DNA from: a virus
Reading direction: 5' to 3' (one strand)
Virus record (IMG/VR): IMGVR_UViG_3300019458_000027
Coordinates: 40,919-104,918 of that record
DNA: 64,000 bases
A model generated the notes under the pieces. That model was given only the letters and a program-made list of their open reading frames with translations, was not told where the DNA came from and did not search any database. This document shows positions 4,190-44,826 of the stretch, one piece after another. Numbering within the stretch: position 1 is the first letter of the stretch; the number at the start of each line of letters is the position of its first letter. Both the position numbers and the translations under genes were made by a program.

Positions 4190-6307
4190 TTAATCCAAAG
4201 CTAATTGCAGAACCCCGGCGAGGGGTTCAGTTATCGTATTCCCACGCCCTGCATTATAAAGAATAGACCGTTCATCCTCAGTTAACACCCGTTTCCAGAA
4301 ACCGACCTCATCGATGCGACCATTCATAGCATTTGGGGTGGTGGGAAATGCCGGATTTATTCCTATGGCGAACGCAGAGGCGGTAGAATTTATCGAATCG
4401 TCATGAAAAGCGGTCTCCACAGGTCCGTTATCAACCTGCATAGAAAGGAGATCGGCATCAGGATCATGCCACGCTACTACAAAATACCATCTCCCTATCT
4501 GAATGGCTCCAGTAGAAACATAATTTAAATCAGAATCGTTGGTAGGAGCACCCCTAGTACCAAATTGGAATAAGATAGGTCCTAAGTCTGTAGCGGTTTG
4601 TAGAAAATATTCTACGGCGGAAGCCCCACCCGAACCAAACTTAGCAACCATAGTTTGCCCATTGCTGACGGAATCGAAGTAGACCCAACAAGCGAGGGAA
4701 AATGGCACAGTCCCAGGTCTAAGTGGCGTAATATCCGCTCTACTGAGATACTCGGCGTTTGCCGCCGTAAATTGCCCTGCTGATCCTACTTTTCCAGGGT
4801 TAAAAGTAACGGTATTATTGTCGGTTAAATCCTTCTTTCTGGTGTAGGAGTTTCCTAATCCAGAATTGTAAAGATCCTCTCTTTCTTTAGCCGTCAACAA
4901 CCTCTTCCAAAAACCAACTTCATCAATTCGGCCATCCAAGGTCTGACTATCTTGGTTATTGGTACGACCCAGTTCAAATGGTGCTGTACCATCATTTGGT
5001 ACAAGTCCAGCGGTTGCTGTTGACTCTATTATTCCGTTATTAATCTGTAGATTTATGGTATTAGCAACAGAATCATGCCAAGCCACTACAAAATACCAGG
5101 TGGCATTTGCAAGAAGTACCGTCGAATTAACGGTTACAAAAGTACCGTCTGATGCAAATACACGCCATTTAAATCTACGTTTTGTTTGATCCCCATCCAG
5201 ATCGGTTTCGAAAAGATCGTATTCTCGATTGGGTGCTACGCCGGCCTTTGAAAGCATACCAGAAGTAACCGATACATTATCGAAATAAATCCAACCGGCA
5301 AAAGTAAAATCAATGTCTCCCACAGAAAGATCGGCATTATCAGCAACCGAAAGGTATTCAATATTGGCCATAGTGAATTGCGCTGCTTTAACTTTTGTTC
5401 CTTGATTTTGAGTAACGGTATTATTGTCGGTAAGATTGCTTCCAGGAAGATAGGTGTTTCCTCTACTTGCTAAATAAAGGTCTTTACGCTCCCTCTCGGT
5501 AAGGACTCTTTTCCAAAAACCAACTTCGTCAATTCGGCCATCCCAAGGACCGGCAACTCCTAGTGAGCCGATATTAAAGGGGCCGGTCAAGTCGGAGATG
5601 GTTAGAGTCTTAGTTACACTATCTACCGCCCCGCCATTAACCTGAATATTAATAGTGTTTGCTGTCTCATCGTGCCAACCCACAACGAAGTACCAAACTC
5701 CAGTGGACAGAGTACCGAAAGAATCTGCTGTTACAAATTCGGAAGCATCTATTAAATCTTTTACTAGAAACTGAAATTTATTAAGACTTCCACTTACCCG
5801 AAGTTGCCATTCGTCTTTCCCACCAGTGTTATCCCCTTTGCTAGCTATGACTCTGGTGGTTCCGGTGCTATCGAGGTAAACCCATGCACAAATAGTAAAG
5901 TCAATCTCTCCAGTAGAGAGAGATGCATTGTCAGCTATCTGAAGATACTCGACGTTAGCAGCTACGAATTGCGCTGATTTTCCCCTTTTTCCATCAGCTT
6001 GTGTAACTGTGTTGTTGTCTGTAAGATGGTTAGAACCTTTTGAATCAAATCGGGTTCCGCTCGTCTCTTCTAGTTTCCAGTATGCTACCAAACTCTCTGA
6101 CATTTTCTTGGTTCGGTCTACTGCAAATCGGTCTGTGGTTTCATCTTCTCTTGTTCCTGATGCTTCGTCTAAAGTCCAATAGCCAAACAACTCGTCGGTC
6201 AAGGTCCGGTTCGTATCAAGCTCGAAATGCCCTCCCCACCTATCTCTACGAATCCCACTAGTTTCTTCTAGCTTGTAATAGGCTTTAAGATCGGTAACTA
6301 AGGGCAT
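4190..6307 (-). CDS. LamG-repeat tail protein, three full modules
   Basis: The 705-residue protein is built of concanavalin/laminin-G-like modules (Laminin_G_3 type). Each full module runs from YWKLEETSGTR through LTDNNTVT, QF..AN.EYLS, WYFVVAWHD, NI.QVNGG to GRIDEVGFWKRVLT and an LYN..RGN end. Two short caps (YYKLEETSG and YWTLDEASG followed by about 20 residues) precede three complete modules. Such domains bind glycans or other surface ligands, so a host-recognition tail-fibre role is likely. It sits at the end of a row of three related genes. Confidence 0.9.
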   Translation of the reverse strand: MPLVTDLKAYYKLEETSGIRRDRWGGHFELDTNRTLTDELFGYWTLDEASGTREDETTDRFAVDRTKKMSESLVAYWKLEETSGTRFDSKGSNHLTDNNTVTQADGKRGKSAQFVAANVEYLQIADNASLSTGEIDFTICAWVYLDSTGTTRVIASKGDNTGGKDEWQLRVSGSLNKFQFLVKDLIDASEFVTADSFGTLSTGVWYFVVGWHDETANTINIQVNGGAVDSVTKTLTISDLTGPFNIGSLGVAGPWDGRIDEVGFWKRVLTERERKDLYLASRGNTYLPGSNLTDNNTVTQNQGTKVKAAQFTMANIEYLSVADNADLSVGDIDFTFAGWIYFDNVSVTSGMLSKAGVAPNREYDLFETDLDGDQTKRRFKWRVFASDGTFVTVNSTVLLANATWYFVVAWHDSVANTINLQINNGIIESTATAGLVPNDGTAPFELGRTNNQDSQTLDGRIDEVGFWKRLLTAKEREDLYNSGLGNSYTRKKDLTDNNTVTFNPGKVGSAGQFTAANAEYLSRADITPLRPGTVPFSLACWVYFDSVSNGQTMVAKFGSGGASAVEYFLQTATDLGPILFQFGTRGAPTNDSDLNYVSTGAIQIGRWYFVVAWHDPDADLLSMQVDNGPVETAFHDDSINSTASAFAIGINPAFPTTPNAMNGRIDEVGFWKRVLTEDERSILYNAGRGNTITEPLAGVLQLALD

Positions 6308-7762
6308 TTAGACCTCCACCAACTCTTTCCCAAAGGCGGGAGACTTCGATTTCAAGATTGCTCTGACTGTGTTTCCCCTTCCGGCGTTGTAAAGATCAGA
6401 ACGTTCTTGGGAAGTTAAAACCCGTTTCCAGAATACAGCTTCGTCTATCCTTCCATTCCAAAAATTGGATGGCGTGGTGTCAAGATTTATAGCTCCAATT
6501 CCTAAAGATGAAGTCCCAACAAAAACCCCTAGAGTGTGAGAGGAAGAATCTATGGTTCCATTATTAATTTGAATGTTGATAGTATTAGCTTCGGGGTCAT
6601 GCCATGCCACAATAAGATGCCATGAAGCGGTTGATGGGGAACCAAAGCTATTGGCAAGTAAGGAGACGATACCGCCTGGTGATCCATCGTTGTCCACAAA
6701 GAACCTAAACCTGTCCTCTGAGTTTCGGTAGTCAATTCCAAACTCTCGTTGGTCAGTGGAATCGTTACTTTTAGTGTATATAGCCATGTTCCCTGGCTTG
6801 CTATCTAAATATACCCACGCCGACACCGTAAAACCTATATCGCCCGTTTTGATTGCGGAATTATTGGCTCGGTTAAGGTATTCACTGTTCGCCCGTACAA
6901 ATTGCCCCGCTCGACTCCTGATCCCCGTGTTTACCCCAACTGTGTTATTATCGGTCAAACTTAACGACCTGGTATAAGAATTTCCTCTCCCTGAATTATA
7001 AAGAAGGGATCGTTCCTCTGCTGTCAAGACTCTTTTCCAAATTCCTACTTCGTCAATACGCCCATCGTGGAAACCACCATGGGTAGTTGGTTCATTTCCC
7101 ATAGTAAACTCATGAGTGCTATCAAAACTCCCGCCGCTTCTACTCGTAGAATCTATCGCACCACCATTAATTTGAACATTCATTGTATCATTAACCGAAT
7201 CGTGCCAAACAACAACAAAGTACCAAGTATTAATAGATAAAATAACGGTGGATGACAAAGTGGTGGAATTGATTCCATTGGCAACTACAAACTCAACAAT
7301 AGGTCTTGTACCCCCCAACCCAGTGGCGTTATTGACTCTAACGAGATATTCATTTTGTGCGGCGACGTTGGAACTTCCCTTTGCAACGAAATTGAACGCC
7401 GTATCTCCGGAGGACGGCGGCACTGAATCCATATAGAACCAGAACGCTATCGTAAAATCTATATCACCCATACTAATATCAGAATTGTCTGCAACACTAA
7501 GATATTCACTATTGGCCCGTGTAAATTGCGCTCCCCTAACTTTCTTACCAAGTGCTTGAGTTACTGTATTATTGTCGGTAAGATGGTTGGTTCCCTTTTC
7601 GTCCTCCCTGGTTCCGCTTAACTCATCCAAAGTCCAATAAGCCACCAGATTATTAGGAAGGGTGTTTCTAGCGTCCCGCTCGAATTTGTTGCCCCAGGCG
7701 TCAAATCTGGTCCCGCTCGTCTCATCCAATTGCCATAACGCTTTAAGATCGGAAGTTAGCAT
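6308..7762 (-). CDS. LamG-repeat tail protein, two full modules
   Basis: The 484-residue protein starts with a short cap (LKALWQLDETSGTRFD) and then has two complete LamG-like modules with the same landmarks as its neighbours (LTDNNTV, ANSEYL, WYFVVVWHD, GRIDEVGIWKRVLT). The sequence between landmarks is variable, as expected for ligand-binding loops. It overlaps the upstream LamG gene by 7 bases and abuts the downstream one, so the three probably arose by tandem duplication. No signal peptide or catalytic motif is seen. Confidence 0.9.
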   Translation of the reverse strand: MLTSDLKALWQLDETSGTRFDAWGNKFERDARNTLPNNLVAYWTLDELSGTREDEKGTNHLTDNNTVTQALGKKVRGAQFTRANSEYLSVADNSDISMGDIDFTIAFWFYMDSVPPSSGDTAFNFVAKGSSNVAAQNEYLVRVNNATGLGGTRPIVEFVVANGINSTTLSSTVILSINTWYFVVVWHDSVNDTMNVQINGGAIDSTSRSGGSFDSTHEFTMGNEPTTHGGFHDGRIDEVGIWKRVLTAEERSLLYNSGRGNSYTRSLSLTDNNTVGVNTGIRSRAGQFVRANSEYLNRANNSAIKTGDIGFTVSAWVYLDSKPGNMAIYTKSNDSTDQREFGIDYRNSEDRFRFFVDNDGSPGGIVSLLANSFGSPSTASWHLIVAWHDPEANTINIQINNGTIDSSSHTLGVFVGTSSLGIGAINLDTTPSNFWNGRIDEAVFWKRVLTSQERSDLYNAGRGNTVRAILKSKSPAFGKELVEV

Positions 7763-10713
7763 ATTAGAAGCTCCGTATCCTTCTCGAAGATTAAAGATCG
7801 GGTTCTTGGTTTCTTGGTTATAAGTGCATTACCACGCCCCTGCAAATATAAATCACGACGCTCCTGGGCTGTCAATATCCGCTTCCAGAACCCTAACTCA
7901 TCAATAAAGCCATCCCATCTGCTAGCGTTTCCTGAAGTATCGGCACCCACAGTAAGAGGTTCTGAGGTAAAGTCTGGGACACCTATAGTCGCAACTGAAT
8001 CTATAGCCCCGCCATCTATCTGAATGTTTACAGTGTTGGCAACGGAATCATGCCACCCAACTACATGAAGCCATTGTCCTATCGGTGGAGACCCGAAAGA
8101 ATTAGCAGGAACGGTTCCAACTATGGTGCCACTTCCTAGGCCAAAGATGGTAAATTCAAGTCGATCCAGAGAGCTATTATACCGCATTCGATATTCTCGA
8201 CTTCCAGTGGTTGGATCGGACTTAGCAACGATCGTCATAAATGTGGCCTTTGACTCGAAGTAAATCCAAGCGGAGAAGGTGAAATCTATATCCCCAACGG
8301 AAACAGAAGTATTACTGGCTAAGGACAGGTATTCACTGTTGTCAACTTCAAAGTCCGCTGCATTCTCCCTAACCCCTGCTATTGTGGAGCCAACGGTGTT
8401 GTTATCAGTCAACTCTAGCGATCTAGAGTAAGAATTGGCGTTTCCTGAATTATATAAGTCCGAACGCTCTTTCGCTGTAAGGGTACGCTTCCAAATACCG
8501 ATCTCCTCTATTCTACCGTCCCAATGCTTGTCGATAGTCCCCAGCACGTTTCTTGCTCCAATGATGAGAGAATTGCTGGTCCGCTGGGTGCCTTTTTCAT
8601 GAGACGCCGACATTATCCCGTTATTGTTGACTTGAAAAAACAATCTGCCCTTAATCCCGTCGTACCAAGCTACTAGGAATAACCAAGTACCTGTGGTTAT
8701 CGTTACTCCAGCGTTGCCTTCTAGAGTAGTAAAATCTGCGCCATTCGATATGGTAAATTGCCAAATGTAGGTTGGCGTGTTTGGAGAGTTATTAGTGAGA
8801 GATATAGCATACTCTGAAGCCACGCTTCCGGCCTGAGCTTCGCCTTTATGAATCAGTTGGTGAACGTCTCCTGGAAGGGAATCGATATAGACCCAACAGG
8901 CAATAGTAAAATCTACCCGCCCTGAAGCCAGACCAACATCATCATTATCTGGGAGGGATAAATATTCCGAGTTAGCTTTGGTAAATTGCCCAGCTTTTAC
9001 TTTCTTCCCTGCAGCTTGAGTTACTGTATTGTTATCAGTAAGATGATGGCCGCCGTGATATGGGTTGCCGAGGCCATCATTATAAAGGTCTTGACGTTCT
9101 TGGGCGGTAAGGACTTTCTTCCAAATTCCGACCTCATCGATTCGGCCATTATGACGGTTTTCTTGACCAGTGCTGGTGAACACCGCACCCATCTCGAAGG
9201 GATGAGAACTATCGTAGCTTCCGCCATTCCAAGATGTGCTTGCTATCGTCCCGTTGTCAATCTGTATGTTGATGGTATCGGCTACAGAATCGTGCCAGGC
9301 AACGATAAAATACCACTGTCCTGTAACCTGAGTCCCATCGGCGTTTACGTTCGCAAAGGAGACATTGTTCCCAACATGAAGGACGAACCTAGTTCCATTC
9401 CAGTGGATATAATACTCAAGGGTCTTGGTAACGTTCCCATCGCCTTTGCCTAAGATTGTATTCCCCCCTGTAAAGGAATCGATAAATACCCAACAAGCGA
9501 TGGAAAAGTCAATATCACCCATAGACAGGGCAGCGTTGTCGGTAATTGATAGGTACTCAGTGTTGGCTGCGACAAATTGCGCTGCTTTGCTTACCTTCCC
9601 GTCATTTCGGGTTACGGTATTATTATCAGTAAGATGGCTAGAACCCTTGGAATCTATCCTGGTTCCACTCGGCTCCCCCAATTGCCAATACGCCACTAGA
9701 CTTCGGGTGAGTGTTCCATCCGTGTCTTTTTCGAAATAGCTTACTTCGTCCTGTCTTGTGCCAGAAGCCTCATCGAGGGTGTAATAGGCCGAAAGTCCGT
9801 CTCTAAGACTTCCAACTGGAATCCTCCTACCTGGAAAGAATGTGTTACCTCTTCCCCTCTGGTAAAGCTCTCGACGTTCGGAAGACGACAGCACTTTCTT
9901 CCAAAAACCTAACTCATCAATCCTACCGTTCATGAACTCCTTTACCCCGCCACCCCCACTTTCGGTTACAGCCCCTACCAAAAATTGCGTACTGCTGGAA
10001 AAAGCCGCCCCAGTGGTGGAAACAATTACTGGACTTCCTCCATTCACACTAATGGCTATCTGATTGTTCACTGCGTCATGCCAAGCCACTACAAAATACC
10101 AGGTTGCTGTGGTAAGTGCCGTTGGCCATTGTGCGTCGGCACCAGTTCCAGTGTGACCCAGGACTATCTTGTTGTCATTAGCATTTATCTGTAAGAGATA
10201 CTCCTGATTGGGGGAACCAATTTCATACTTTGTTACTACGTTGAAAGAAGAACCAGCAATGGATGGAAGGGAATCTAGGTAAATCCAGCAAGCGATGGTG
10301 TAGTCTATGTCGCCTGTCGTAAGATCACTGTTGCTGGCCCGGCTTAAGTATTCGCTGTTGGCTTTGGTAAATTGGGCGGCCGGTCCTATAATCCCCGAAC
10401 TTTGCGTTACGGTGTTGTTATCAGTAAGATGACTTGATCCTTTAGAATCTCGACGGGTTCCTGAGGTCTCGTCCAATTTCCAATAGGCCACCAATCTGTC
10501 GGCCAATGTAAGACTGGGGTCAACGTCGAATATACCAGGATCGCTACCCCCCATAATAGCCGTCCTGCCTTGATTACAGTCGGTGTCTTTCTCGAATACT
10601 CCTCCCCAAGCCCCAAAACGGGTTCCGTCAGTTTCTTCAAGACGGAAATACGCTTTCAGATTTGTTCTTAGGGAATCGTTGGTATCGTATTCAAAGACAG
10701 GGGACTTAGGCAT
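7756..10713 (-). CDS. LamG-repeat tail protein, four full modules
   Basis: At 985 residues this is the longest protein in the window. After an N-terminal LKAYFRLEETDGTR cap come a full LamG-like module, a second cap (LSAYYTLDEASGTRQD), then three more full modules. Each module is about 210-220 residues and ends GRIDE.G.WK. followed by an LY..G.GN signature. The N-terminus (MPKSPVFEYDTND) may be the tail attachment end. Lectin-like adhesion to the host surface is inferred from the fold family. Confidence 0.9.
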   Translation of the reverse strand: MPKSPVFEYDTNDSLRTNLKAYFRLEETDGTRFGAWGGVFEKDTDCNQGRTAIMGGSDPGIFDVDPSLTLADRLVAYWKLDETSGTRRDSKGSSHLTDNNTVTQSSGIIGPAAQFTKANSEYLSRASNSDLTTGDIDYTIACWIYLDSLPSIAGSSFNVVTKYEIGSPNQEYLLQINANDNKIVLGHTGTGADAQWPTALTTATWYFVVAWHDAVNNQIAISVNGGSPVIVSTTGAAFSSSTQFLVGAVTESGGGGVKEFMNGRIDELGFWKKVLSSSERRELYQRGRGNTFFPGRRIPVGSLRDGLSAYYTLDEASGTRQDEVSYFEKDTDGTLTRSLVAYWQLGEPSGTRIDSKGSSHLTDNNTVTRNDGKVSKAAQFVAANTEYLSITDNAALSMGDIDFSIACWVFIDSFTGGNTILGKGDGNVTKTLEYYIHWNGTRFVLHVGNNVSFANVNADGTQVTGQWYFIVAWHDSVADTINIQIDNGTIASTSWNGGSYDSSHPFEMGAVFTSTGQENRHNGRIDEVGIWKKVLTAQERQDLYNDGLGNPYHGGHHLTDNNTVTQAAGKKVKAGQFTKANSEYLSLPDNDDVGLASGRVDFTIACWVYIDSLPGDVHQLIHKGEAQAGSVASEYAISLTNNSPNTPTYIWQFTISNGADFTTLEGNAGVTITTGTWLFLVAWYDGIKGRLFFQVNNNGIMSASHEKGTQRTSNSLIIGARNVLGTIDKHWDGRIEEIGIWKRTLTAKERSDLYNSGNANSYSRSLELTDNNTVGSTIAGVRENAADFEVDNSEYLSLASNTSVSVGDIDFTFSAWIYFESKATFMTIVAKSDPTTGSREYRMRYNSSLDRLEFTIFGLGSGTIVGTVPANSFGSPPIGQWLHVVGWHDSVANTVNIQIDGGAIDSVATIGVPDFTSEPLTVGADTSGNASRWDGFIDELGFWKRILTAQERRDLYLQGRGNALITKKPRTRSLIFEKDTELLIC

Positions 10714-23379: not shown

Positions 23380-23568
23380 TCACTTTTCCCACAATACACC
23401 ACTCCAATCAGGCATTACAGCGTGTTCACCAGCTAAAACTTCATCGATCACTTTTATCTTGTCATAAAATCCGTTCCCGTCAACCTGTTCGGTTAGATGA
23501 ATCCACCCTTTTCCCCGTTCAAAGATTGCCGCCCTATGACACGCTATGCACTTCGCCTCTCCTAACAT
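23380..23568 (-). CDS. Small protein with CxxCH motif, 62 aa
   Basis: The protein starts MLGEAKCIACHRAAIFERGK and has no other Cys. CIACH resembles a haem-c site, but without a signal peptide and in this context a structural metal site is more likely. The C-terminus is DWSGVLWEK. It overlaps the end of the Mom-like gene by 35 bases. Confidence 0.55.
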   Translation of the reverse strand: MLGEAKCIACHRAAIFERGKGWIHLTEQVDGNGFYDKIKVIDEVLAGEHAVMPDWSGVLWEK

Positions 23569-24304
23569 TCCCTTCCTCCTCTCGTTTTGGGAAGGGCTTT
23601 AGTAAGTGTTTGATCGCACCAAGGTTTTTCTTCGTTTCAGCTTTACTACCACGAAAGGCAAAGTATCGTGCTTTACTAAGCTGTTTTATGACCGTGGCGT
23701 CAGGCCACACCTTTCGTACCTCATCGATCCTTTGACACCCCACTCTAGCCCTAACCGTTCTACTCCCAATTATTTTACCTCCCGATTTTATTGCCCAACG
23801 TGTTTTATTCTTTCTCATAACTCCAGTATAAACAAAGTTGCAAGCTTGATAAATCGTGCCAACTTCTCCAGCATTCGCATCCACCGTTGCCGTTACTACT
23901 TTATATTTCGGCGGTAGAAGCCTCATAGATTCTCTAATAAGCTTGCTAGCCGTATTTTTCGGGGTCCAATGAGCACAAGCCCCCCTAGCTAACAAGATCA
24001 TCTTTCCTGTATAACCGTACTTGTCCCAAACCCCACGATTCTCCACATAATCGTGGGCGTAAATAACCACACCCCCACATTCGTAACCTAGTCCATTTTT
24101 CCAGGGAAAGAAGATTCCGTAAGATTGAAGCATGACAGACGGCATTGTGCCTAACCACTCGTATCTCAAGATGATCTCTTTAGTAAGTTGATAGCTTGAA
24201 GGCTTGACCACGGCCACGGAAAGATCAACGTTCACGTGGGACCACGGTTCAAGCCCGAAGTTTTTTAATTCTCTTTCCCTAATTGTGGATTGATGTGCTT
24301 TCAC
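23534..24304 (-). CDS. Mom-like DNA base modification protein, second copy
   Basis: This protein of about 256 residues has the GNAT-like layout of phage Mom proteins: SYGIFFPWKNGLGYECGGVV, then a conserved LARGACAHWTPKNTASKLI helix, VVTATVDANAGEVGTIYQAC and NFVYTGVM, followed by a basic C-terminal region. Mu Mom converts adenine to N6-carbamoylmethyladenine. The start is placed at a GTG overlapping the upstream stop as GTGA; another GTG lies at 24319. It forms an operon with the shorter Mom-like gene and an AAA ATPase. It diverges clearly from its neighbour, so the two may act on different substrates or steps. Confidence 0.7.
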   Translation of the reverse strand: MKAHQSTIRERELKNFGLEPWSHVNVDLSVAVVKPSSYQLTKEIILRYEWLGTMPSVMLQSYGIFFPWKNGLGYECGGVVIYAHDYVENRGVWDKYGYTGKMILLARGACAHWTPKNTASKLIRESMRLLPPKYKVVTATVDANAGEVGTIYQACNFVYTGVMRKNKTRWAIKSGGKIIGSRTVRARVGCQRIDEVRKVWPDATVIKQLSKARYFAFRGSKAETKKNLGAIKHLLKPFPKREEEGNVRRGEVHSVS

Positions 24305-24939
24305 GGCGAAGGGTTCCACTTTGGATAGGGTCTAATCTGATATCTTAACTTCTTTAGTAACACTTTCCTCCGAGCTTTGCTACAGTTAAAGTAGACGTAC
24401 CGATGTTTCCTCGGCCTCTCTGTGGCCAACATTTGGTTTCCTAATGCTTCTTTAGTCCTGTTCACCCCACCGTATTTATCGTACTGATGCCGATCATGCC
24501 CGATTTCACCAGGCAATTTCCACAAAACATGACGAGTGCTAAGTCCAGTATAAACCCAATTAGAAGCTTGGTAAACGTAACCCACATGATTTACGGAAGG
24601 ATCGGCAAAACTTACGACGATATCCTTCTTGACCTTCTTCAAAGATTGGCTAATGACAAAACTCTCTAAGTTTTTGGGAAGTCCGTCTTCGACCCATAAC
24701 CTAGTCAGTTCTATAACATTATTCGCTTCGTCTGCGCCACAAATGCCCACCTGTAAGTTTCTACTGGCCGGAACACCATAAAGTGCAATTCCCACCAATC
24801 GGCAAACAACCTCCCCGCAATCAAAAACCCCGAAAGCATAACTACAGGGAGCTTTTCGGTGTAAATAATGGTTTCTAATGCTCAAGTCTTGAGCTAACGA
24901 TTTGGCAATTGTCGTTACAACGAATCGATCAGTAATCAT
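24301..24939 (-). CDS. Mom-like DNA base modification protein
   Basis: The 212-residue protein closely fits the Mom family: HYLHRKAPCSYAFGVFDCGE near residue 25, IELTRLWVEDGLPKNLESFV near 80, then IVVSFADPSVNHVGYVYQAS and NWVYTG. These are the landmarks of Mu Mom, which modifies adenine in phage DNA to evade restriction. Length is close to Mu Mom. The C-terminal 60 residues are basic, suited to DNA contact. It overlaps the AAA ATPase gene by 11 bases. The actual target base here is uncertain because the genome also encodes PurZ. Confidence 0.8.
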   Translation of the reverse strand: MITDRFVVTTIAKSLAQDLSIRNHYLHRKAPCSYAFGVFDCGEVVCRLVGIALYGVPASRNLQVGICGADEANNVIELTRLWVEDGLPKNLESFVISQSLKKVKKDIVVSFADPSVNHVGYVYQASNWVYTGLSTRHVLWKLPGEIGHDRHQYDKYGGVNRTKEALGNQMLATERPRKHRYVYFNCSKARRKVLLKKLRYQIRPYPKWNPSP

Positions 24940-26320
24940 AATCGTCGTCCATCAACCTCTTCCATCGCAAAGATTCCGATTCAACCGGGGAAAGGTCGGC
25001 GGGACTTTTGAAGCCAACGTCAGCGTTCTTCTTCTTTTTCACCCTCTTCACGGACTCTTCAAAATGCCTTCTGGTAAGGTGAATCTTCTCTTTCTTGTAG
25101 GACTTATCATCAATGGCCGAGATAATGGCGGTCGTTACAAGCTCCCTCACATGAGAACCAGTCATTCCATCCGTGGCATCCGCAAGGGCTTTATAATCTA
25201 GCTCGGTTAAATCGCAAACGCAATCCCCACGATTAATGTAGAGCTTAAGGAGAGCTTCCCTCTGCGTCGCCTCAGGTAACTTTATCTCATAAGATCGGTC
25301 GAAACGCCCAGGTCGGCTTCTTAGGGCTTCCTCAATTTGCTCGGCTCTATTGGTAGTAGCAATGGTAACGACATACTCATTTGTCGTCAGACCATCCAAT
25401 TGATTCATAAGCTCCCCTAGTAACCCCATGTCGGTCGATTGTTCTCGGTGCTTGGTATAGAGGTCCATATCCTCAAGGAAAAGAATGGCGGGGGACAGGT
25501 CCCTTACCAATTCGTATATATCACTAACGTCTTTCGCCTCCCGAACAAACCTAGGAGTTACCCAAACAAAAGAGCACCCAACGGTGGAACACAAAATCTT
25601 GCCAATAAGGGTCTTCCCCGTTCCGGGCACACCCTTAAGCATGATTCCTCTTTTGAAAGGAAGCTCGGCTTTCTTGTATGCTTCAATATTGTTGAATAAG
25701 CTATCAATGTTTAGCTTAAGCTCTTTCTTCACTTTCTCAGGGAGAATCACATCATCCCAAGTATATTTTCTGTCTAGTTTAATGTGCTTGAAAGCGGGAT
25801 TTATCTTTTTCCCTTTTAAGAAGTTGTGAGATTTCGCATAAGCCCTGGAATCATTGAGAAATTTTTGTGCTGCGTCGGCTCCCTCTTTTCTGCAAAGAAC
25901 CTCGTAAGTATATAGTCTTGAACCAGAAGAAGCCATCTCCACAACAATAGATTCACCGTTAGGGGTTTTCAAGAAAATGTTGCCCTCGCCCCATCCCCTC
26001 TTGAAAACTTCCGGTTCTATTTCTATGTTGATGTACTCAGGGGCAGAAATATCGTCGTCCCAAACTTTGAAGGATTGACCCCTAATGTACCCCGCCTCCT
26101 TGCAGAAATCCTCAAAGGCGGCGGCAATGAGAATGTGTTCGTACTCGGATATTCTCTGCGTTATCGAAAGAACGTTTTGAATTGGAATCCCAACATGATC
26201 GGAATATAATTTAGATCGTAATTTAGAGTACCAACCAGAATGCCGAAGGGCCTCAGCATACTCCTGTAGGTTGGCTTCCGTAAGCTTCTTTCCTTGCCAA
26301 TCGGGTTTTTCGTCAGACAT
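24929..26320 (-). CDS. AAA ATPase
   Basis: The 463-residue protein has an N-terminal domain of about 200 residues without a recognised family, then a classical AAA module: Walker A MLKGVPGTGKT near 235, Walker B AILFLEDMD near 285, and the second region of homology TTNRAEQIEEALRSRPGRFD with arginine fingers near 325. Such modules unfold or remodel proteins, as in proteasome-ATPase, FtsH, Bcs1 and SpoVK. There is no protease or membrane domain. Position directly upstream of two Mom-like genes suggests a shared function, perhaps remodelling a DNA-protein complex during modification; this is inference. Confidence 0.9.
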   Translation of the reverse strand: MSDEKPDWQGKKLTEANLQEYAEALRHSGWYSKLRSKLYSDHVGIPIQNVLSITQRISEYEHILIAAAFEDFCKEAGYIRGQSFKVWDDDISAPEYINIEIEPEVFKRGWGEGNIFLKTPNGESIVVEMASSGSRLYTYEVLCRKEGADAAQKFLNDSRAYAKSHNFLKGKKINPAFKHIKLDRKYTWDDVILPEKVKKELKLNIDSLFNNIEAYKKAELPFKRGIMLKGVPGTGKTLIGKILCSTVGCSFVWVTPRFVREAKDVSDIYELVRDLSPAILFLEDMDLYTKHREQSTDMGLLGELMNQLDGLTTNEYVVTIATTNRAEQIEEALRSRPGRFDRSYEIKLPEATQREALLKLYINRGDCVCDLTELDYKALADATDGMTGSHVRELVTTAIISAIDDKSYKKEKIHLTRRHFEESVKRVKKKKNADVGFKSPADLSPVESESLRWKRLMDDDYDY

Positions 26321-27851: not shown

Positions 27852-28098
27852 CCTTCTCCTTTTGCCACCTAACGTAGGCGTAACTTCCAACCCCGCTACC
27901 AGCTGCATACGACACAGCCAACCAAAGATTGCTAATATTAGACACGATAGACACCAAAACAGCATACCAAATGATAACGTAGGCAAAATCCAGCATACCC
28001 GATAGAAATGCATGACCTCTGCTAATAGCTTTTACGTGCCAAGAACTAACGAAATCCTCCAACACCCCGGCGAGGAATAATCCAACAAGAAGAAGCAT
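27826..28098 (-). CDS. Membrane protein, 90 aa
   Basis: Three hydrophobic segments are visible: MLLLVGLFLAGVL at the start, FAYVIIWYAVLVSIVSNI in the middle, and LAVSYAAGSGVGSYAYV, followed by a basic tail. The layout resembles small integral membrane proteins of the DUF2179/DUF5698 type, but this is tentative. ATG follows the upstream stop directly. Confidence 0.65.
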   Translation of the reverse strand: MLLLVGLFLAGVLEDFVSSWHVKAISRGHAFLSGMLDFAYVIIWYAVLVSIVSNISNLWLAVSYAAGSGVGSYAYVRWQKEKDGTPKLDK

Positions 28099-28607
28099 TA
28101 CTTTTCCTCGTCTTTGATCTTCTTGGTATACTCTTCCTTGATATGATCAAGCATGGAATCCCAGGTGTCGAATCTCCTGCCCGTTTCCAGTAAAAGGGAC
28201 AGAATCCATGAATTGACCTTACTAACGCTACCCGAACACTTCCAAAGAACGGGGATTTTTTGCTCCCAAGCTTTCACGATTTCGTGCACTGTACCACCCA
28301 TCTGTGCACCGTCGGAATCGGGAACCAAAGCGATTAGAAACAAGGATTTACTAACGGCCGTGATATCCTGATCTCTAATGGGAGCCATATCCTTAAGGAA
28401 CAACTCCCACTGACCTTGTTCCTTAATCTTGGTCATTTTCGTCTTGTGTTCTACTACGGGGAGACCCGATACGTCGGCCTCCCGAATACATGGGTCGAAT
28501 ACATGGAGGCCCAATTTCTCAAGATCGGGAGTCAGTCGTTCTCTCCACTTACTCCCTCCATCCTTAGCGTCCTCGATAGGTCCGCAGAGATAAACCATAT
28601 ATTTCAC
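28098..28607 (-). CDS. Nucleoside 2-deoxyribosyltransferase-like protein
   Basis: The 169-residue protein has the family's landmarks: MVYLCGPIEDAKDGG at the N-terminus (nucleoside-binding GP), FDPCIRE near 38, RDQDITAVSKSLFLIAL near 80, and GAQMGGTVHEIVKAW near 105, where Glu is the expected nucleophile. These enzymes swap bases between deoxynucleosides or hydrolyse modified nucleotides. With the neighbouring DERA it suggests deoxynucleoside salvage or clean-up of unwanted purines. Substrate is not established. Confidence 0.7.
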   Translation of the reverse strand: MKYMVYLCGPIEDAKDGGSKWRERLTPDLEKLGLHVFDPCIREADVSGLPVVEHKTKMTKIKEQGQWELFLKDMAPIRDQDITAVSKSLFLIALVPDSDGAQMGGTVHEIVKAWEQKIPVLWKCSGSVSKVNSWILSLLLETGRRFDTWDSMLDHIKEEYTKKIKDEEK

Positions 28608-28882
28608 GATTCCTCCTTCTCTGAACTTCCATCCTTTGGAAACTCCAACGTAACACTAACCATATTGAACTTAGCTCGGATGGTATTCAGTATCATCAGT
28701 TTGTCGGTAATCTTGTCGGCGGCGGCGTCCTCCGCTTCTGGAACAGCGATCACTGCATGGGCATTACGCAACTCAGCATCGAGAAAGTCGCCGTAGGTCC
28801 TTAGTGCATCGAGAACCATTCGGTATTCATCAAAAGGGAACACTACTTCTGTTTTGTCGGTTTTTATCGTAACGTCTGTCAT
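28604..28882 (-). CDS. Hypothetical protein, 92 aa
   Basis: An N-terminal beta strand pair (VTIKTDKTEVVFPFDEYRMV) leads to helices and a C-terminal strand with an acidic tail. It overlaps its neighbours by ATGA on both sides, between DERA and the deoxyribosyltransferase-like gene. No family is recognised; a regulatory or accessory role in the same pathway is possible. Confidence 0.6.
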   Translation of the reverse strand: MTDVTIKTDKTEVVFPFDEYRMVLDALRTYGDFLDAELRNAHAVIAVPEAEDAAADKITDKLMILNTIRAKFNMVSVTLEFPKDGSSEKEES

Positions 28883-29565
28883 TTTTCCCCTTCCTGCGTC
28901 GGAGATTTTGGATTATCTCGGTCGGTAAGTTGCTTCATAATATCCACACCGGAAGATGTTCCAATTCTCTCGGCACCATGGTTTATAAGCTCTTCCACTA
29001 CATCAATTTGACGAATCCCACCAGAAGCTTTCACCTTAAGGTCATCCCTCTTGTAGTGGTTTATGATAAATAGATCGTGCGGGGTTACACCCCTAGTCTC
29101 CCATCCCGTACAAGTTTTAATCCACTCCGCTTTTGTCTCAGACACCAACCTCGCAGCGTCGGCGATCTGCCTATCCGTCAGATGCGGAGTGCTGATAATT
29201 ATCTTTAGTACCTTTTCAGGATAAGCCTCCTTAACAAGGTTAATTTCGTCCTCAACTTTATGATACGACCCGTCGAGAAAGGCAGAAATGTTCATAACCA
29301 TGTCAATTTCGTCTACCCTCTTTTGAACCTCAGCAAGCTTAGCTTCCGGAGAGTTGTATCCTAAGGGAAATCCAACAACCTGTCCCACCTTAACGGGAGC
29401 ATGAAGAAGTCTAGTATAAACATAGTCTACCCAATAAGGAGGAACCATTACGCTATAGAATCTATAATCCTCTGCTTCCTCAACCAGTTTGTCGTAGTCC
29501 TTTCTGGTCTTGTTCGGATTCAACATCGTGTGATCTATAAGAAGAGCCAACTCTTGCTTAATCAT
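28879..29565 (-). CDS. deoC: Deoxyribose-phosphate aldolase
   Basis: The 228-residue protein matches DERA. Residues 10-16 read LIDHTML. Asp in DEIDMVMNIS is the expected catalytic acid, Lys in WIKTCTGW is the Schiff-base lysine, and Lys in KVKASGGIR is the second active-site lysine. DERA cleaves 2-deoxyribose 5-phosphate to glyceraldehyde 3-phosphate and acetaldehyde. In a phage it could recycle sugar from degraded host DNA. It is co-transcribed with a deoxyribosyltransferase-like gene. Confidence 0.85.
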   Translation of the reverse strand: MIKQELALLIDHTMLNPNKTRKDYDKLVEEAEDYRFYSVMVPPYWVDYVYTRLLHAPVKVGQVVGFPLGYNSPEAKLAEVQKRVDEIDMVMNISAFLDGSYHKVEDEINLVKEAYPEKVLKIIISTPHLTDRQIADAARLVSETKAEWIKTCTGWETRGVTPHDLFIINHYKRDDLKVKASGGIRQIDVVEELINHGAERIGTSSGVDIMKQLTDRDNPKSPTQEGEK

Positions 29566-32073: not shown

Positions 32074-33141
32074 TTAGTGAAGTATCGGTCCTTCTGCTAA
32101 GCGATCAACCATATGTGTAATATCTGGCCCCGTTCCAACCAAGGTCACAGGAACACCTGTCAACTCCTGTATTTTATCAATAAATCTCTTGGCCGATGAG
32201 GTCAGATTCTCATATTTATTGACCCCGTGATTTTTCCAGTCTATATAATCCGCAAACATCAGGGCAATTGCACTGGGGCGGTTCGCTTTCACGGCTCGAA
32301 CAACCATTTCCTCATTGAACTCGCTCACCCTCCGAACTCTTTTAGTAACCGTGGTTAGCTCTGTGATAATCCCCTCAGGAGCACCACACCGCTTAGGAAC
32401 CGTTGGCCAATCAATCTCATCCGCTCCCATCGGCCCTGAGTTACCCGCCACCCTGATTGGATAGGTTCTAACTACCATGTAGACATTATTAACCACCGTC
32501 GGAGCTAACCCACTATCAGATAGTAAACTAGCGGAGATCACATCACGTGAAGTAACAAATGGCCACTCCCCATGATTTAAACTGATACCGTAGCCCTGTG
32601 TACCCTCAATCATAATCTTAAGGCCCCGATCTACGGCCTCATTAAGGTAGTCGGACACATTGGTTACGAACGGCTTTAACCAACCAACGTCTTTGGCTCG
32701 AAGGAAACCATCCGTACGGAGAACTTTCTCAGCTTGAGCTTCTCCAATTCCTTCGCAAGTGGAACCCAGTTTCTCGAACATTCTCCTTTGCTGTTCGTTT
32801 AACCGATGTTTCTCGGTAACTATGCCGGCATTCCGGTCGATCTTTAGGCGAGTTGTGGAGTGGGGAACCAAGTCCATTTCGGCTTTGAGGACTGTTTCCT
32901 CCAACAATCCATTCGCACCAACACACAACACCGTGGTGTCGTCAACCAAACCCGCACACGGAAGCTGTCTCATCTTCCACTTCTGGTCACCAACCTGAAC
33001 GGTATGCCCTGCATTGGGGGCACCAACCCGTACGGCAACATCATAATGACTTTTCTTGGCAAGATAGGCAACCACGGCTCCCTTACCCTCCGAGCCATAT
33101 TGCCCCCCAACAATTAGATCGACCGATTTAGTCTTTTCCAT
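32074..33141 (-). CDS. purZ: PurZ, phage 2-aminoadenylosuccinate synthetase
   Basis: The 355-residue protein belongs to the adenylosuccinate synthetase family. Its P-loop reads GGQYGSEGKG, where cellular PurA has GTQWGDEGKG. Ser at residue 17 replaces the catalytic Asp, the change that marks phage PurZ and lets it use dGMP. GAPNAGHT (about residue 45), IEGTQGYGISLNHG and TSRD, TYPIRVAGNSG and the end region VTLVGTGPD are retained. PurZ joins dGMP and aspartate; host PurB then gives dZMP. The start at 33141 follows GAGGAG. It lies downstream of the SbcC-like gene. Z would replace A throughout the phage genome. Confidence 0.88.
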   Translation of the reverse strand: MEKTKSVDLIVGGQYGSEGKGAVVAYLAKKSHYDVAVRVGAPNAGHTVQVGDQKWKMRQLPCAGLVDDTTVLCVGANGLLEETVLKAEMDLVPHSTTRLKIDRNAGIVTEKHRLNEQQRRMFEKLGSTCEGIGEAQAEKVLRTDGFLRAKDVGWLKPFVTNVSDYLNEAVDRGLKIMIEGTQGYGISLNHGEWPFVTSRDVISASLLSDSGLAPTVVNNVYMVVRTYPIRVAGNSGPMGADEIDWPTVPKRCGAPEGIITELTTVTKRVRRVSEFNEEMVVRAVKANRPSAIALMFADYIDWKNHGVNKYENLTSSAKRFIDKIQELTGVPVTLVGTGPDITHMVDRLAEGPILH

Positions 33142-33160
33142 TGATTTCTCCTCACCGTTA

Positions 33161-34822
33161 TTATACCCTCTCCAACACCTTAGATACTCCGTTCTCTTTA
33201 ACGACCTCAGACACATTGATGGTTCTATCCCGAACGTCAGTATGACTAATCACCAATACCTTCTTGAATTGTTCTGTTAATCGGGACACAAGGGAAATGA
33301 ATCGATCTCTTCCTTCCTCGTCCAATGATTCCGAAGCTTCATCAATAATGAGGGTCTTGAGACGATAGCTATTCCTACGGGCCAAGACCACAGCAATTCC
33401 TAACCGAACAGCCAAATCTATTCGGGCCTTCTCTCCCCCGCTGAAATTGCTATAAATTCGGTCGTGTAACCCATCGTAGATGAAAAGCTGTAGAGTGTCA
33501 GCTATTCCTCCACCCTTTAATTCCTTCTCCAAACGCAATTCTACCCTGAACCGTCCGTTTGTTAACTGATCAAGAAAGGTATTGGCCGCCAGTTGGACTT
33601 CCTCCAATGCGGAGGACATGATAATGGTGGGGATACCGTTACTGCCAAAAGCGTCCAACAGATACCGATAAATGGCAAATTCCTCCTTCTTTGTTGTTAT
33701 CTTACTCTGTAATTCGCTAAGTTGGGCTTTCAAACGGGTCTGGTTGTCATACATGGAAACAATATAACCACGCTTTTCGCTAAGCTCCTGCAAAGTTTTC
33801 TCATATCCATTCACTAATATAGCGTTCTCACTGATCTCGAAAGTTAGATTCCCGAAATCCTTCTTAGAAAAGGTCTCAATCTCGGCATAAATAGCTTCCA
33901 GCTTGTCTTTATATGAGGCCATATGCTCTTGGAGTCTCTGGATGGCCACACTACGGGATTTATCGCTCCATCCCCCTCCACAAAAGGGACAACTATCGGA
34001 GCTTATCCCATTTAGAGACGACTCCAACAATTGAAGCTCCTCTACTTTATTTTGTAAGAACTCTCTCTTTCCATTTAGCTTGTCGAGGAGGTCTTGATTT
34101 TCTTTTTTAGCCGCCTCCAATATGTGTGTCAAGTAACGTTGTTTGCTATTAACTTCTATCCTAGCATCGTTGACAACGTTAATTCGAAGGTCGAGAGATT
34201 GAAGTTTCTCTTCCGAACCCTCTAGTGGGATAGCTTCTTGTTCTAAAGTTTTGGCCCTAGTTTCATATTCAATGAGGTCGTTTTGGATTATTCTCACGTT
34301 TTCTCGTACTTTGGTTTCGTAAGTTTGATACTCCGACAATCCTAGGATATCATAAAAGACCCTCTTAGCTTCCTTGGGGGTTAGGGAAGAGAAGGAACTT
34401 AGTTTTCCTTGTTCAATACAAGCGGAATTGGAAAAAGTTTCATATGTAAATCCTAAAACCCGTTCAATCTTTTGCTGTGTGTCTGCCAGAGTGTCCCCCG
34501 TTATTTCCTCGTCGTTCTTAAAAAAGGAAAGGTAAGACTTTTCGTTACGATTCCTACCCCGAATTACAGTATAAGAATCCCCGTTCAAACCAAATCCTAC
34601 CGTAACCTCGGCGTAATCTTCGCCCTCGGTTATAAGCTGGTCCCCCGCCCTATCTTTGTTCCGGGCCACCCCAAACAAACCCCAAGTTATGGAATCTTTA
34701 ACTAACGAGGACTTCCCCGCTCCATTTTTTCCGACAAAAACCTTAACCGATGTGTTGGAGAAATCCAACACCGTGTCCTTATGACTAAGGAAATTAGTCA
34801 GTTTCAGACTTAGGATATTCAT
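33161..34822 (-). CDS. SbcC/Rad50-like recombination ATPase
   Basis: The 553-residue protein has the ABC-type P-loop VGKNGAGKSSL near residue 32, two coiled-coil arms with a zinc hook CPFCGG near residue 280, and a C-terminal signature FSGGEKARIDLA followed by Walker B LIIDEASESLD. This is the T4 gp46/SbcC architecture in short form. It works with the SbcD-like nuclease encoded at 36445-37398 in processing DNA ends and recombination-dependent replication. Several small genes now separate the pair. Confidence 0.88.
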   Translation of the reverse strand: MNILSLKLTNFLSHKDTVLDFSNTSVKVFVGKNGAGKSSLVKDSITWGLFGVARNKDRAGDQLITEGEDYAEVTVGFGLNGDSYTVIRGRNRNEKSYLSFFKNDEEITGDTLADTQQKIERVLGFTYETFSNSACIEQGKLSSFSSLTPKEAKRVFYDILGLSEYQTYETKVRENVRIIQNDLIEYETRAKTLEQEAIPLEGSEEKLQSLDLRINVVNDARIEVNSKQRYLTHILEAAKKENQDLLDKLNGKREFLQNKVEELQLLESSLNGISSDSCPFCGGGWSDKSRSVAIQRLQEHMASYKDKLEAIYAEIETFSKKDFGNLTFEISENAILVNGYEKTLQELSEKRGYIVSMYDNQTRLKAQLSELQSKITTKKEEFAIYRYLLDAFGSNGIPTIIMSSALEEVQLAANTFLDQLTNGRFRVELRLEKELKGGGIADTLQLFIYDGLHDRIYSNFSGGEKARIDLAVRLGIAVVLARRNSYRLKTLIIDEASESLDEEGRDRFISLVSRLTEQFKKVLVISHTDVRDRTINVSEVVKENGVSKVLERV

Positions 34823-40960: not shown

Positions 40961-41357
40961 TAGTCAGAAGCTCCGCATAGTCGGCTCCCGCTACAATATA
41001 CCTCCAATAACGGGGGTACTTAGCTTTGTACTTCATATGGACTTGGCGATAGACCTTCACTTGCTTTTCGTCGGCCAACCCATTGGTATAAACCCTCACC
41101 TGTCCAAATTTCTCCTTCCAATCAGCGACGGAGATTCCTCTCTTTTTTAAGTCTTTGGCGATCTCGCTGGCGATCTTCCCAATAACTCGGAAGAAGTTAG
41201 TAGAGATTGGTCGTCCTCTCCAGTCCTTCTTAGCTCCCCAGTACGCTCCCTCGCCTTTACCAGCAAAGGTTACGATAACCCCCACTTTAGTTCCTCCTAC
41301 ATCAATCTCCCCACGCAACCTCCCGGTATTGGGGTCTACTTTCAGTTTTTTATTCAT
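40938..41357 (-). CDS. Hypothetical protein, 139 aa
   Basis: The start MNKKLKVDPNTGRLRGEIDV follows a GGAGG site. The domain is mixed alpha/beta with KVGVIVTFAGKGEGAYWGAK and VRVYTNGLADEKQVKVY. The C-terminus overlaps the membrane-protein gene by 23 bases. No family is recognised. Confidence 0.6.
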   Translation of the reverse strand: MNKKLKVDPNTGRLRGEIDVGGTKVGVIVTFAGKGEGAYWGAKKDWRGRPISTNFFRVIGKIASEIAKDLKKRGISVADWKEKFGQVRVYTNGLADEKQVKVYRQVHMKYKAKYPRYWRYIVAGADYAELLTNEKPTIS

Positions 41358-41358
41358 C

Positions 41359-41841
41359 TTATCCTCCGCAACATTTCTTCCACTTTTTAGTGCTTCCACA
41401 AAGACATGGCTCGTTACGCCCAGGTTCCTTGGCCCTACGATCTTCGATAGTTAGTCCTTGTAGGTGGTCGATCTCATGCTGAATGCATTGCGCCGTCAGT
41501 CCGTACACAGCGAAACGTCTACCGTCCCCATTCTCAAAGACAACATCAGAAGCCCGTTTAACCGTGAAGATTTGGCCGGGATAACTCAAACAACCCTCAT
41601 GGTAAAACTTTAGTCCCGTCATTTCAATGATCTTAGGATTCCACAAATCTACCTTTTCTTCGCCAATCCTAACAATAGCAATCTGCATAGGAAGTCCGAT
41701 TTGAACTCCAGCAAGTCCGATTCCGGGAACCTTTGACGCCTTTAGCTCAAGCTCCAACTGAGCAAATAGACTGGGGAGATTTACCTCCTCATTCCTTTCA
41801 ACTTTTCTGCTTACCCGTCCTCGAATCCCACCGTAGATCAT
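41359..41841 (-). CDS. Peptide deformylase with C-terminal SEC-C motif
   Basis: The 160-residue protein has the three deformylase motifs: GIGLAGVQIG (motif 1, about residue 40), EGCLSYPG (motif 2, Cys ligand, about 83) and QHEIDHLQG (motif 3, about 120). It ends PGRNEPCLCGSTKKWKKCC, a SEC-C zinc knuckle. Deformylases remove the N-terminal formyl group from new proteins. Marine phage deformylases are known, but fusion to a SEC-C zinc knuckle, which may tether it to ribosomes or nascent chains, is unusual. Confidence 0.88.
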   Translation of the reverse strand: MIYGGIRGRVSRKVERNEEVNLPSLFAQLELELKASKVPGIGLAGVQIGLPMQIAIVRIGEEKVDLWNPKIIEMTGLKFYHEGCLSYPGQIFTVKRASDVVFENGDGRRFAVYGLTAQCIQHEIDHLQGLTIEDRRAKEPGRNEPCLCGSTKKWKKCCGG

Positions 41842-43149: not shown

Positions 43150-44174
43150 TTTTTCAGGTATAACTCCTTTATTTCCTTCTCGTACTTTTTATAATTCTTC
43201 CCGTCCCGAAAAAACTCTGCCAATCCTGCCTTCCCTTGAAGTTTTTCTTCTCCGGCCTGGAAGAATGACCCTTTTTGTGTAACTAGCCCTAACATAAGAG
43301 CGTATCTGGCCATGGACTCGGCGTTATCAATCTGCCCCTGATTTTCTCCTGAGAAGTAGAAAGGAATCTCTGCCGTTCTGTATGGAGGAAAAGTCTTGTT
43401 CTTATCGGTTCTGCCCTTGAAATGCCTACCGATCTTGACCTTTTCCCCATCTTTATCGTCCTCTATCCATTCCCCCGTCCGCATTTCTACCGTAATGGAG
43501 GAAGCAAACTTAATGCCCATGCCTCCTGGGGTGGTCGTATTCGGGCCGTACATCACTCCAACTTTATATCGTAGCTGGTTTATGAGGAATACCAAGCATT
43601 GGTTGAGAGTGCCATCATCGGCCCGTACATTGATGGCTGAATGAAGCTTCCTAATTAAACGATTCATCATTAACGCTCGGTCTCCGATCTTTTCTACCTC
43701 TGTCATTGGGGTCTCGTTGTCCATAGAGGGGAGCATAGCAGCCACGGAATCTAAGACTACCAATCCACAATCACCGGATCGGGTAACGGCGTCAACAAAG
43801 TCGGCGGCCTCTTCTCCTGTGTTGGGTTGAACCACAGTAATCTTATCAATATCCACCCCTAGAATCTTAGACCATTCGGGGTCGAATGCCCTTTCTTGGT
43901 CTATCCACACTACAGGCCTTCCAAGCTTCTGAACCTCAGAGGCGGCCTTCAAGGCCAGCATGGTCTTTCCGCAGCTTTCCCACCCATGAACCTCCACCAC
44001 CCTGCCGAGGGGCCAACCCCCGCCGATCTCCAGGTCAAGAGCTAGGGAGCCGGTGGATACTCGTTCCAGTTTAGTCCTTTTCAGAACTTCTGGGTCAATG
44101 ATCGTATGGCTACCGTACTTCTTGGCTAACTCTTTCAGGGTTTCCTGTAGCTCTCCCAACGACGTTCCTCCCAC
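43146..44174 (-). CDS. recA: RecA recombinase
   Basis: The 342-residue protein has the RecA core: STGSLALDLEIGGGWPLGRV, Walker A EVHGWESCGKTML near residue 65, VVWIDQERAFD, Walker B LVVLDSVAAML near 140, and INQLRYKVGVMYGPNTTTPG (L2 region). It promotes strand exchange in phage recombination and repair. It sits between the DUF4338 gene and small zinc and membrane genes, in the replication block. Confidence 0.92.
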   Translation of the reverse strand: MGGTSLGELQETLKELAKKYGSHTIIDPEVLKRTKLERVSTGSLALDLEIGGGWPLGRVVEVHGWESCGKTMLALKAASEVQKLGRPVVWIDQERAFDPEWSKILGVDIDKITVVQPNTGEEAADFVDAVTRSGDCGLVVLDSVAAMLPSMDNETPMTEVEKIGDRALMMNRLIRKLHSAINVRADDGTLNQCLVFLINQLRYKVGVMYGPNTTTPGGMGIKFASSITVEMRTGEWIEDDKDGEKVKIGRHFKGRTDKNKTFPPYRTAEIPFYFSGENQGQIDNAESMARYALMLGLVTQKGSFFQAGEEKLQGKAGLAEFFRDGKNYKKYEKEIKELYLKK

Positions 44175-44826
44175 TTGTATGATACCTTACGCCTAACTCA
44201 TGGGCCCTCTTCTTCTGTAATTCCTTAGCCAGTCTCTTCTCTTCTGGAGTTTCATTGGCCCACGATGAAACGTGCATTCCAGTTGGGGCTACTGGGTGTA
44301 AATCTGCCCAACGGCAATAAATTAGTTTCGGTGCTGTCGTAGCTCTCTTATGGGGATTGGAGATGTTGCGACTGACCTTAGTGCTTCCCGCCGTCTGGCC
44401 CAGGAAAGTCCAATTGTCGGCCTTGTACAACGCCCCCACCCTAGTAGGAGTCTCAACTACGAATGTCTCGAATCCAATAACCGAAGTCCCATAAAATTTC
44501 TCCCACAAGAGGGTAACTACCTTCCTCCAAGTAGATAACACCATCGTTGCTAGGTTTTTCTCATGAGATTCTAACCTGAACACCGTGTTATTAACTAGGT
44601 GAGGAAGCAAGGAATCTCTATTCTGCTGGTTAATTTCGAAGAATATATCTCTCGCCTTTACTGAGTAAACCGATGAGGCCCCCGAAATGATACCAACTAT
44701 CGTCTCGTCCTTCCAGATTAAGAAATGAATCTGCCTTCCAATGGCCCCATGATTTTCTACATAATGCCTATCCCGAAACGTTTGGTATCGAGGGTCAGAA
44801 ATCTTGCACACTTCCAACTCTATCAT
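44110..44826 (-). CDS. DUF4338 (DruA-like) protein
   Basis: The 238-residue protein resembles DUF4338: RHYVENHGAIGRQIHFLIWK near residue 20, IISGASSVYSVKARDIFFEI near 50, HLVNNTVFRLESHEKNLATM near 75, then YGTSVIGFETFVV and ALYKADNWTFLGQTAGS. This domain is the defining part of DruA from the Druantia defence system. It may have a nucleic-acid modifying or acetyltransferase-like fold. Here it stands alone in a phage, between recA and a gene with the KRWKIKEKG tail, and shares the late Y-x-A-x-NW pattern with the Mom-like proteins. Its function is unknown. Confidence 0.65.
   Translation of the reverse strand: MIELEVCKISDPRYQTFRDRHYVENHGAIGRQIHFLIWKDETIVGIISGASSVYSVKARDIFFEINQQNRDSLLPHLVNNTVFRLESHEKNLATMVLSTWRKVVTLLWEKFYGTSVIGFETFVVETPTRVGALYKADNWTFLGQTAGSTKVSRNISNPHKRATTAPKLIYCRWADLHPVAPTGMHVSSWANETPEEKRLAKELQKKRAHELGVRYHTSGRNVVGRATGNPERVSQEVR

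Follow-up and report, generated by a model that had tools for sequence, protein, structure and literature searches.

The Mom protein of bacteriophage Mu adds a carbamoylmethyl group to the N6 of adenine in Mu DNA. Adenine (A) and 2-aminoadenine (Z) have this exocyclic amino group in common. Residues of Mu Mom are referred to here as H58, Y59, D149 and Y159, which we take to be H48, Y49, D139 and Y149 of the published numbering; the H48/Y49 pair (H58/Y59) is presumably part of the iron/active site. The residue and iron claims for Mu Mom are said to go back to the work of Karambelkar in 2020. Position S124 was also counted as important, because the title of the solved Mu Mom structure, 8BV8, contains the words 'inactive mutant S124A'.

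The Z pathway has been worked out in three phages, SH-Ab 15497 among them, according to PMC12884076. The open-access literature searched contains no description of PurZ, or of 2-aminoadenine or diaminopurine, together with Mom: PMC8281217 lists 2-aminoadenine and the Mom modification separately, PMC8072286 does no more than cite work on methylcarbamoylation, and a search of PMC8670742 for Mom returned nothing. An earlier note on this DNA, made from the sequence alone, knew of no described system with this combination. The literature searched agrees with that statement, but the pairing is present, unremarked, in the public genome of Acinetobacter phage JeffCo. The coexistence of Mom and PurZ is a new combination of two known kinds of modification, rare but not unique.

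The stretch of DNA that we analysed (the window) is 64,000 nt long and corresponds to bases 40919–104918 of a 104,918-base IMG/VR virus record. All of the genes discussed in the window lie on the minus strand. The ORFs in the remainder of the record are mainly structural-looking or without assignment, as judged by eye from their translations. Near one end of the window, at 4190–10713, three large ORFs consist of similar repeated LamG-like blocks (recognized by eye), and these probably encode tail or adhesion proteins.

Two Mom-family ORFs are found on the same strand at 23534–24939. Mom1 (ORF A, 23534–24319, minus strand) encodes 261 aa from a GTG start, and overlaps by 19 nt with Mom2 (ORF B, 24301–24939, minus strand), which encodes 212 aa from an ATG start. 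The start of Mom2 is in turn overlapped by 11 nt by a gene for an AAA+ ATPase (24929–26320, minus strand; Pfam AAA, 80 bits). Given these overlaps, the ATPase, Mom2 and Mom1 genes look like a single operon. The ATPase is PAN/FtsH-like, and its N-terminal part has no family assignment. A search of the Mom and PurZ loci turned up a relative of the ATPase gene only at one PurZ locus (L154), and we rejected the gene as a constant partner of Mom.

Mom2 is a canonical member of the family. It matches the Pfam Mom profile (PF25680) with 155.8 bits, against a cut-off of 27.1, and its best PHROG match (E 3e-49) is 1384, 'Mom-like DNA modification protein'. Comparison with the Mu protein gave an E value of 2e-15 by phmmer against 8BV8 and 29.5% by tblastn, and 8BV8 was the top PDB match of the Mom2 AlphaFold model (AF2, pLDDT 92.0; Foldseek E 1e-14). 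All five of the Mu positions that we checked (H58, Y59, S124, D149 and Y159) are kept. We predict that Mom2 is probably the active N6 modifier of purines.

Mom1 belongs to the same family at a greater distance, with 61.6 bits to PF25680 (cut-off 27.1) and PHROG 1384 as its best match (E 4e-21). The AlphaFold model of Mom1 (AF2, pLDDT 83.1) also ranks 8BV8 first in the PDB (Foldseek E 5e-10), and VIA-align superimposed the two with a Z-score of 16.1 and an rmsd of 3.3 over 184 residues; among the folds listed by VIA-align, the next GNAT reached 12.0. The earlier note had described two divergent Mom-like genes in tandem, and this description is borne out: homology places both proteins inside the Mom/GNAT families, the structure search returned Mu Mom for each, and the divergence extends to the active-site columns, which read HYSDY in Mom2 and EWSDY in Mom1. 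Like Mu Mom, then, the window proteins have the Mom family signature and fold, and Mom2 shares the five residues as well; unlike Mu, the window carries tandem genes, has a Glu–Trp pair in Mom1 and also encodes a PurZ-like enzyme.

The active-site columns were read at Mu H58, Y59, S124, D149 and Y159 in an alignment of Mu Mom, three window proteins, the Mom proteins of JeffCo and of a 41.6 kb IMG/VR record (G074), the proteins of phages f2b1 and 501E54-1, and 81 IMG/VR ORFs. HYSDY was read in Mu, Mom2 and the G074 and JeffCo proteins. The Mom2-like ORFs (n=70) comprised 30 with HYSDY, 36 with HYSEY and four with HWTDY. Mom1 is without the canonical H58/Y59, having Glu and Trp in their place with the Ser, Asp and Tyr kept, and of the 13 relatives that group with Mom1, 12 have the same Glu–Trp pair: f2b1, 501E54-1 and 10 of the 11 Mom1-like IMG/VR ORFs all read EWSDY, and the single exception is a short, weak match of 17.7 bits. 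Because the change is uniform across the aligned relatives, we regard Mom1 as representing a distinct phage subfamily rather than a product of random decay. Strong matches to Mom1 in cultured phages were limited to f2b1 and 501E54-1, two of the five records listed, the other three being weaker and partial.

The replacement of a His–Tyr pair that we take to be part of the iron/active site raises the possibility that Mom1 does not modify DNA, and instead partners Mom2 in an inactive or regulatory role or acylates a protein or a small molecule. We consider this quite improbable. S124, D149 and Y159 are kept and the Glu–Trp pair is uniform in the subfamily, so the site looks maintained but different; the pair also occurs in phages with a single Mom match, such as G002–G009, and Mom1 is closer in structure to Mu Mom than to the next GNAT by the Z-scores given above. 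Of the nine records of the Mom1 clade that are most closely related, eight (G002–G009) contain just one Mom match, which led us to reject an obligate Mom1–Mom2 partnership; the ninth (G001) contains two Mom1-type genes.

A third, distant relative of Mom is encoded at 44110–44826 (minus strand). The Mom profile matches this protein with 18.5 bits, under the cut-off of 27.1, and the five Mu columns read H, Y, T, V and Y. It is a DruA-domain protein (Pfam DruA, 63.8 bits), thereby resembling DruA of Druantia, and lies outside the Mom tandem. The gene overlaps the end of a recA-like gene (recA recognized by eye).

The claim of the earlier note that this is a PurZ genome stands in part. An ORF at 32074–33216 (minus strand), in which the gene probably starts at residue 26, encodes a PurZ-like enzyme (PHROG 1211, E 5e-72) with the PurZ-defining Ser (GSEGKG) at the position of PurA Asp13, where either Ser or Gly marks PurZ, and its motifs RVAGNSG and TTVTK resemble those of characterized PurZ0 enzymes. 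What does not stand is a firm assignment to PurZ. The protein scored 228.5 bits with the NCBIfam PurZ profile (NF038379), missing the cut-off of 300, and 322.3 bits with the adenylosuccinate synthetase profile PRK04293, above the PurZ score and also short of its cut-off (368). It is nearer in sequence to the adenylosuccinate synthetases 5K7X and 2D7U than to the solved PurZ enzymes, and in a 63-row tree it fell with support in neither the PurZ nor the PurZ0 clade, being absent from every supported set that comprised half of the rows or fewer. A single-protein scan of viral contigs with PurZ, which was too strict, returned no relatives.

PurZ-like genes with the defining Ser are also frequent in cellular genome contigs, where they may be prophage or host genes, with 437 places confirmed by tblastn, and a motif scan of 80 loci kept from these gave 75 with S, four with G and one with D. 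Ser alone is, therefore, no proof of Z-DNA. The bacterial and archaeal GTDB contigs with such genes (L276–L355) include Sorangium, Terriglobus, a Halobacteria genome and DPANN archaea. No Mom was found near the purZ-like genes of cellular genomes in the fetched flanks of the 80 loci.

Several genes of the window could serve a Z pathway. A MazG-like pyrophosphohydrolase (63025–63360, minus strand; PHROG 715, E 1e-11) is a candidate MazZ-type dGTPase, and with 124.8 bits matched the MazG portion of an ORF that lies close to purZ at another locus (L123). In that locus, the ORF at 1069–1854 has a DUF1937 domain fused to the MazG-like domain, and lies near an ORF at 4440–6062 that is a kinase–PurZ fusion (kinase recognized by eye). 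A nucleoside deoxyribosyltransferase-like (NDT-like) protein is encoded at 28098–28607 (minus strand; Pfam Nuc_deoxyri_tr2, E 6e-6, 27.1 bits, missing the cut-off of 30), and with 24 bits it matched an NDT gene that lies immediately upstream of purZ at locus L104. The NDTs of Wayne or Ghobes used as queries gave no match to it, nor did a sequence search of the PDB. With weak matches only, it was rejected as a proven DmtZ and stays a weak candidate. The window also encodes a deoxyribose-phosphate aldolase (deoC, 28879–29565, minus strand; NCBIfam TIGR00126, 186.7 bits, cut-off 117.3) and a deoxynucleoside monophosphate kinase (46101–46604, minus strand; PHROG 139, E 5e-43; Pfam DNMK, 65.3 bits).

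The DNA polymerase does not fit the pathway as readily. It is a fusion of a family 4 uracil-DNA glycosylase (UDG), a 3'-5' exonuclease and a family A DNA polymerase (48111–50645, minus strand; Pfam/NCBIfam), and by NCBIfam it is not DpoZ, with 135.8 bits to NF038380 (cut-off 500) and 63.8 bits to NF038381 (cut-off 350). Searches of the record, which may be incomplete, gave no match for relatives of DatZ (a search run without a positive control), DutZ or DUF5664, and no gene removing dATP or selecting dZTP was found in it. The window thus resembles phages with PurZ (phiVC8, SH-Ab 15497 and S-2L) or PurZ0 (Wayne and Ghobes) in its Ser for Asp13, its motifs and its MazG-like and NDT-like genes, but differs from them in falling under the PurZ and DpoZ cut-offs and in the partner genes that were not found. 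We treat the window gene as PurZ-like, because the missed cut-off, the tree, the polymerase and the partners weigh against the MazG-like, NDT-like, deoC and kinase genes. The view of the earlier note that a PurZ genome should contain Z instead of A is accordingly too strong for this phage, given the missed cut-off and the dATP-removing or dZTP-selecting gene that was not found; partial substitution by Z is as likely as full substitution.

These data also bear on the possibility that the phage contains little or no Z, with the polymerase inserting mostly A, the PurZ-like enzyme giving little dZTP or having another job, and both Mom proteins acting on adenine as in Mu. The missed PurZ cut-off, the polymerase that is not DpoZ, the failure to find in the record a partner removing dATP or both dGTP and dATP, and the abundance of Ser-type genes in cellular contigs all favour such a scheme. 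It is opposed by the agreement of RVAGNSG and TTVTK with characterized PurZ0, by the set of MazG-like, NDT-like, deoC and dNMP kinase genes, and by the published survey of PMC12884076, where Ser occurs in each of the 147 PurZ-group sequences from phages. On balance, we regard a phage of this kind as a minority possibility that deserves to be taken seriously.

To place the combination in context, we determined how often Mom and PurZ share a genome. Among 171 whole IMG/VR records with PurZ relatives, besides the window, Pfam Mom was found in three; these were three of the 80 closest to the window gene, with none in 41 records from the PurZ0 query and none in 50 from the PurZ query. Cultured phages with PurZ relatives had Mom in 0 of 12 cases in one set and 1 of 9 in another, the one being JeffCo, which was in that set because it had been returned earlier by a search for Mom. 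In the opposite direction, PHROG 1211 was matched in 0 of 92 Mom records (0/42 and 0/50), many of which are fragments. The background frequency of Mom2 matches is 250 in 50,697 phage records, and against it the three in 171 represent no clear enrichment of Mom in Z phages, many of the records being fragments. Given the rarity of the pairing, the counts offer no statistical indication of selection for Mom to act on Z.

Tandem arrangement is no better a guide. Of 42 other Mom records, four (G001, G038, G039 and G042) have two Mom genes next to each other, and seven have at least two Mom matches; a PurZ match was found in none of the four. Tandem Mom genes are thus not specific to Z, and the reading of the earlier note calls for correction on this point. 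The options that it listed, a doubly modified purine, partial Z substitution and a different target for one enzyme, are still the appropriate ones.

The two genes are neighbours in G074 (IMG/VR 3300032242_001495; locus L180, 3832–5567), in which PolA, Mom, PurZ, NDT and dUTPase follow in this order on one strand as a PurZ0-type cluster, and mom is directly upstream of purZ, ending 32 nt before it. The PurZ of this record scores 344.5 bits, over the NCBI cut-off of 300, the polymerase falls just short of the DpoZ cut-off (332.5 bits against 350), and the NDT and dUTPase assignments are supported by Pfam. The gene content fits the PurZ0 gene set given in PMC12884076, with Mom as an extra. As a lone query, the PurZ of G074 matched only itself.

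The other two records are large. G078 (355.8 kb; PurZ locus L128, Mom loci L174 and L176–L179) combines PurZ with five Mom matches in long ORFs, the N-terminal part of which is endonuclease-like (by eye). Mom–REase fusions of jumbo phages appear in PMC7824862; the Mom domain is common to these and to the window proteins, but the fusions carry an endonuclease-like part whereas the window Moms stand alone, and G078 holds its five such ORFs beside a PurZ gene. G090 (312.4 kb) has PurZ and one Mom match of 32.7 bits with one internal stop codon.

JeffCo (MW176034) is a cultured phage with PurZ and an intact Mom in which five of five checked residues are kept. The Mom gene (gp55, 41151–41789) encodes 212 aa and matches the Pfam Mom profile with 132.2 bits, whilst DpoZ scores 915 bits (cut-off 500) and PurZ 421 bits (cut-off 300). 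Identity to SH-Ab 15497 is 84.6% for PurZ, 61% for the DUF550/5664-type protein and 75% for DatZ, and JeffCo is grouped together with SH-Ab 15497 and Barton in PMC11126041. Like the window, JeffCo has a PurZ-type gene and an intact Mom in one genome; it differs in having one Mom, far from purZ, and a full Z cluster including DpoZ and DatZ. In the public record (L262, 41151–41789 and 31197–32363), the intact Mom that accompanies the full Z cluster is annotated merely as a hypothetical protein. The nearest relatives of JeffCo Mom are proteins of Staphylococcus, Bacillus and Exiguobacterium phages (60–61%), and the sister phage Barton, which shares with JeffCo the host A. calcoaceticus ATCC 23055, gave no Mom match.

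We read the window pair as a probable operon for two Mom-type DNA modifiers that use acyl-CoA, in a tailed phage whose PurZ-like enzyme makes, or once made, dZMP. This reading is the likeliest of those considered, although it falls a little short of an even chance. Under it, Mom2 would place the carbamoylmethyl group known from Mu on the N6 of purines at some of the sites in phage DNA after replication, and could use A or Z, depending on which of them is there. Mom1 most likely modifies DNA as well, but with its different metal/active-site pair it would do so by another acyl chemistry or in another target context. Mom and Z would be two independent defences against restriction that coincide by chance. 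According to PMC8342488, E. coli methyltransferases act in vitro on DNA that contains Z, though with lower efficiency, so that the action of an N6 enzyme on Z is plausible. In JeffCo, where replacement by Z is expected to be complete, the predicted product would be N6-carbamoylmethyl-2-aminoadenine; for the window phage, a mixture of A and Z is more likely.

A bolder reading, which we consider a minority possibility, is that JeffCo, G074 and, to some extent, the window phage stack both changes on a single base, with PurZ providing Z and Mom then altering its N6, and that Mom1 of the window phage adds another group of different chemistry, perhaps on Z. Z substitution and Mom modification are each known. 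If Mom acts on Z, phages could join base replacement during replication to hypermodification of that base afterwards, which would create a new DNA base and probably widen the escape from restriction. The uniform Glu–Trp subfamily is a separate lead towards a different DNA modification that depends on acyl-CoA.

The distribution of Mom could alternatively arise if Mom in Z phages were a passing moron, at present functionless, that meets PurZ by coincidence. We consider this rather unlikely: the reading frames are open and the five checked residues intact in the Moms of G074 and JeffCo and in Mom2, and in G074 the gene immediately upstream of purZ is mom. The rarity of co-occurrence (three of 171, against the background of 250 in 50,697) would sit well with a moron, as would the affinity of JeffCo Mom to proteins of Staphylococcus, Bacillus and Exiguobacterium phages and the lack of a Mom match in its sister phage Barton.
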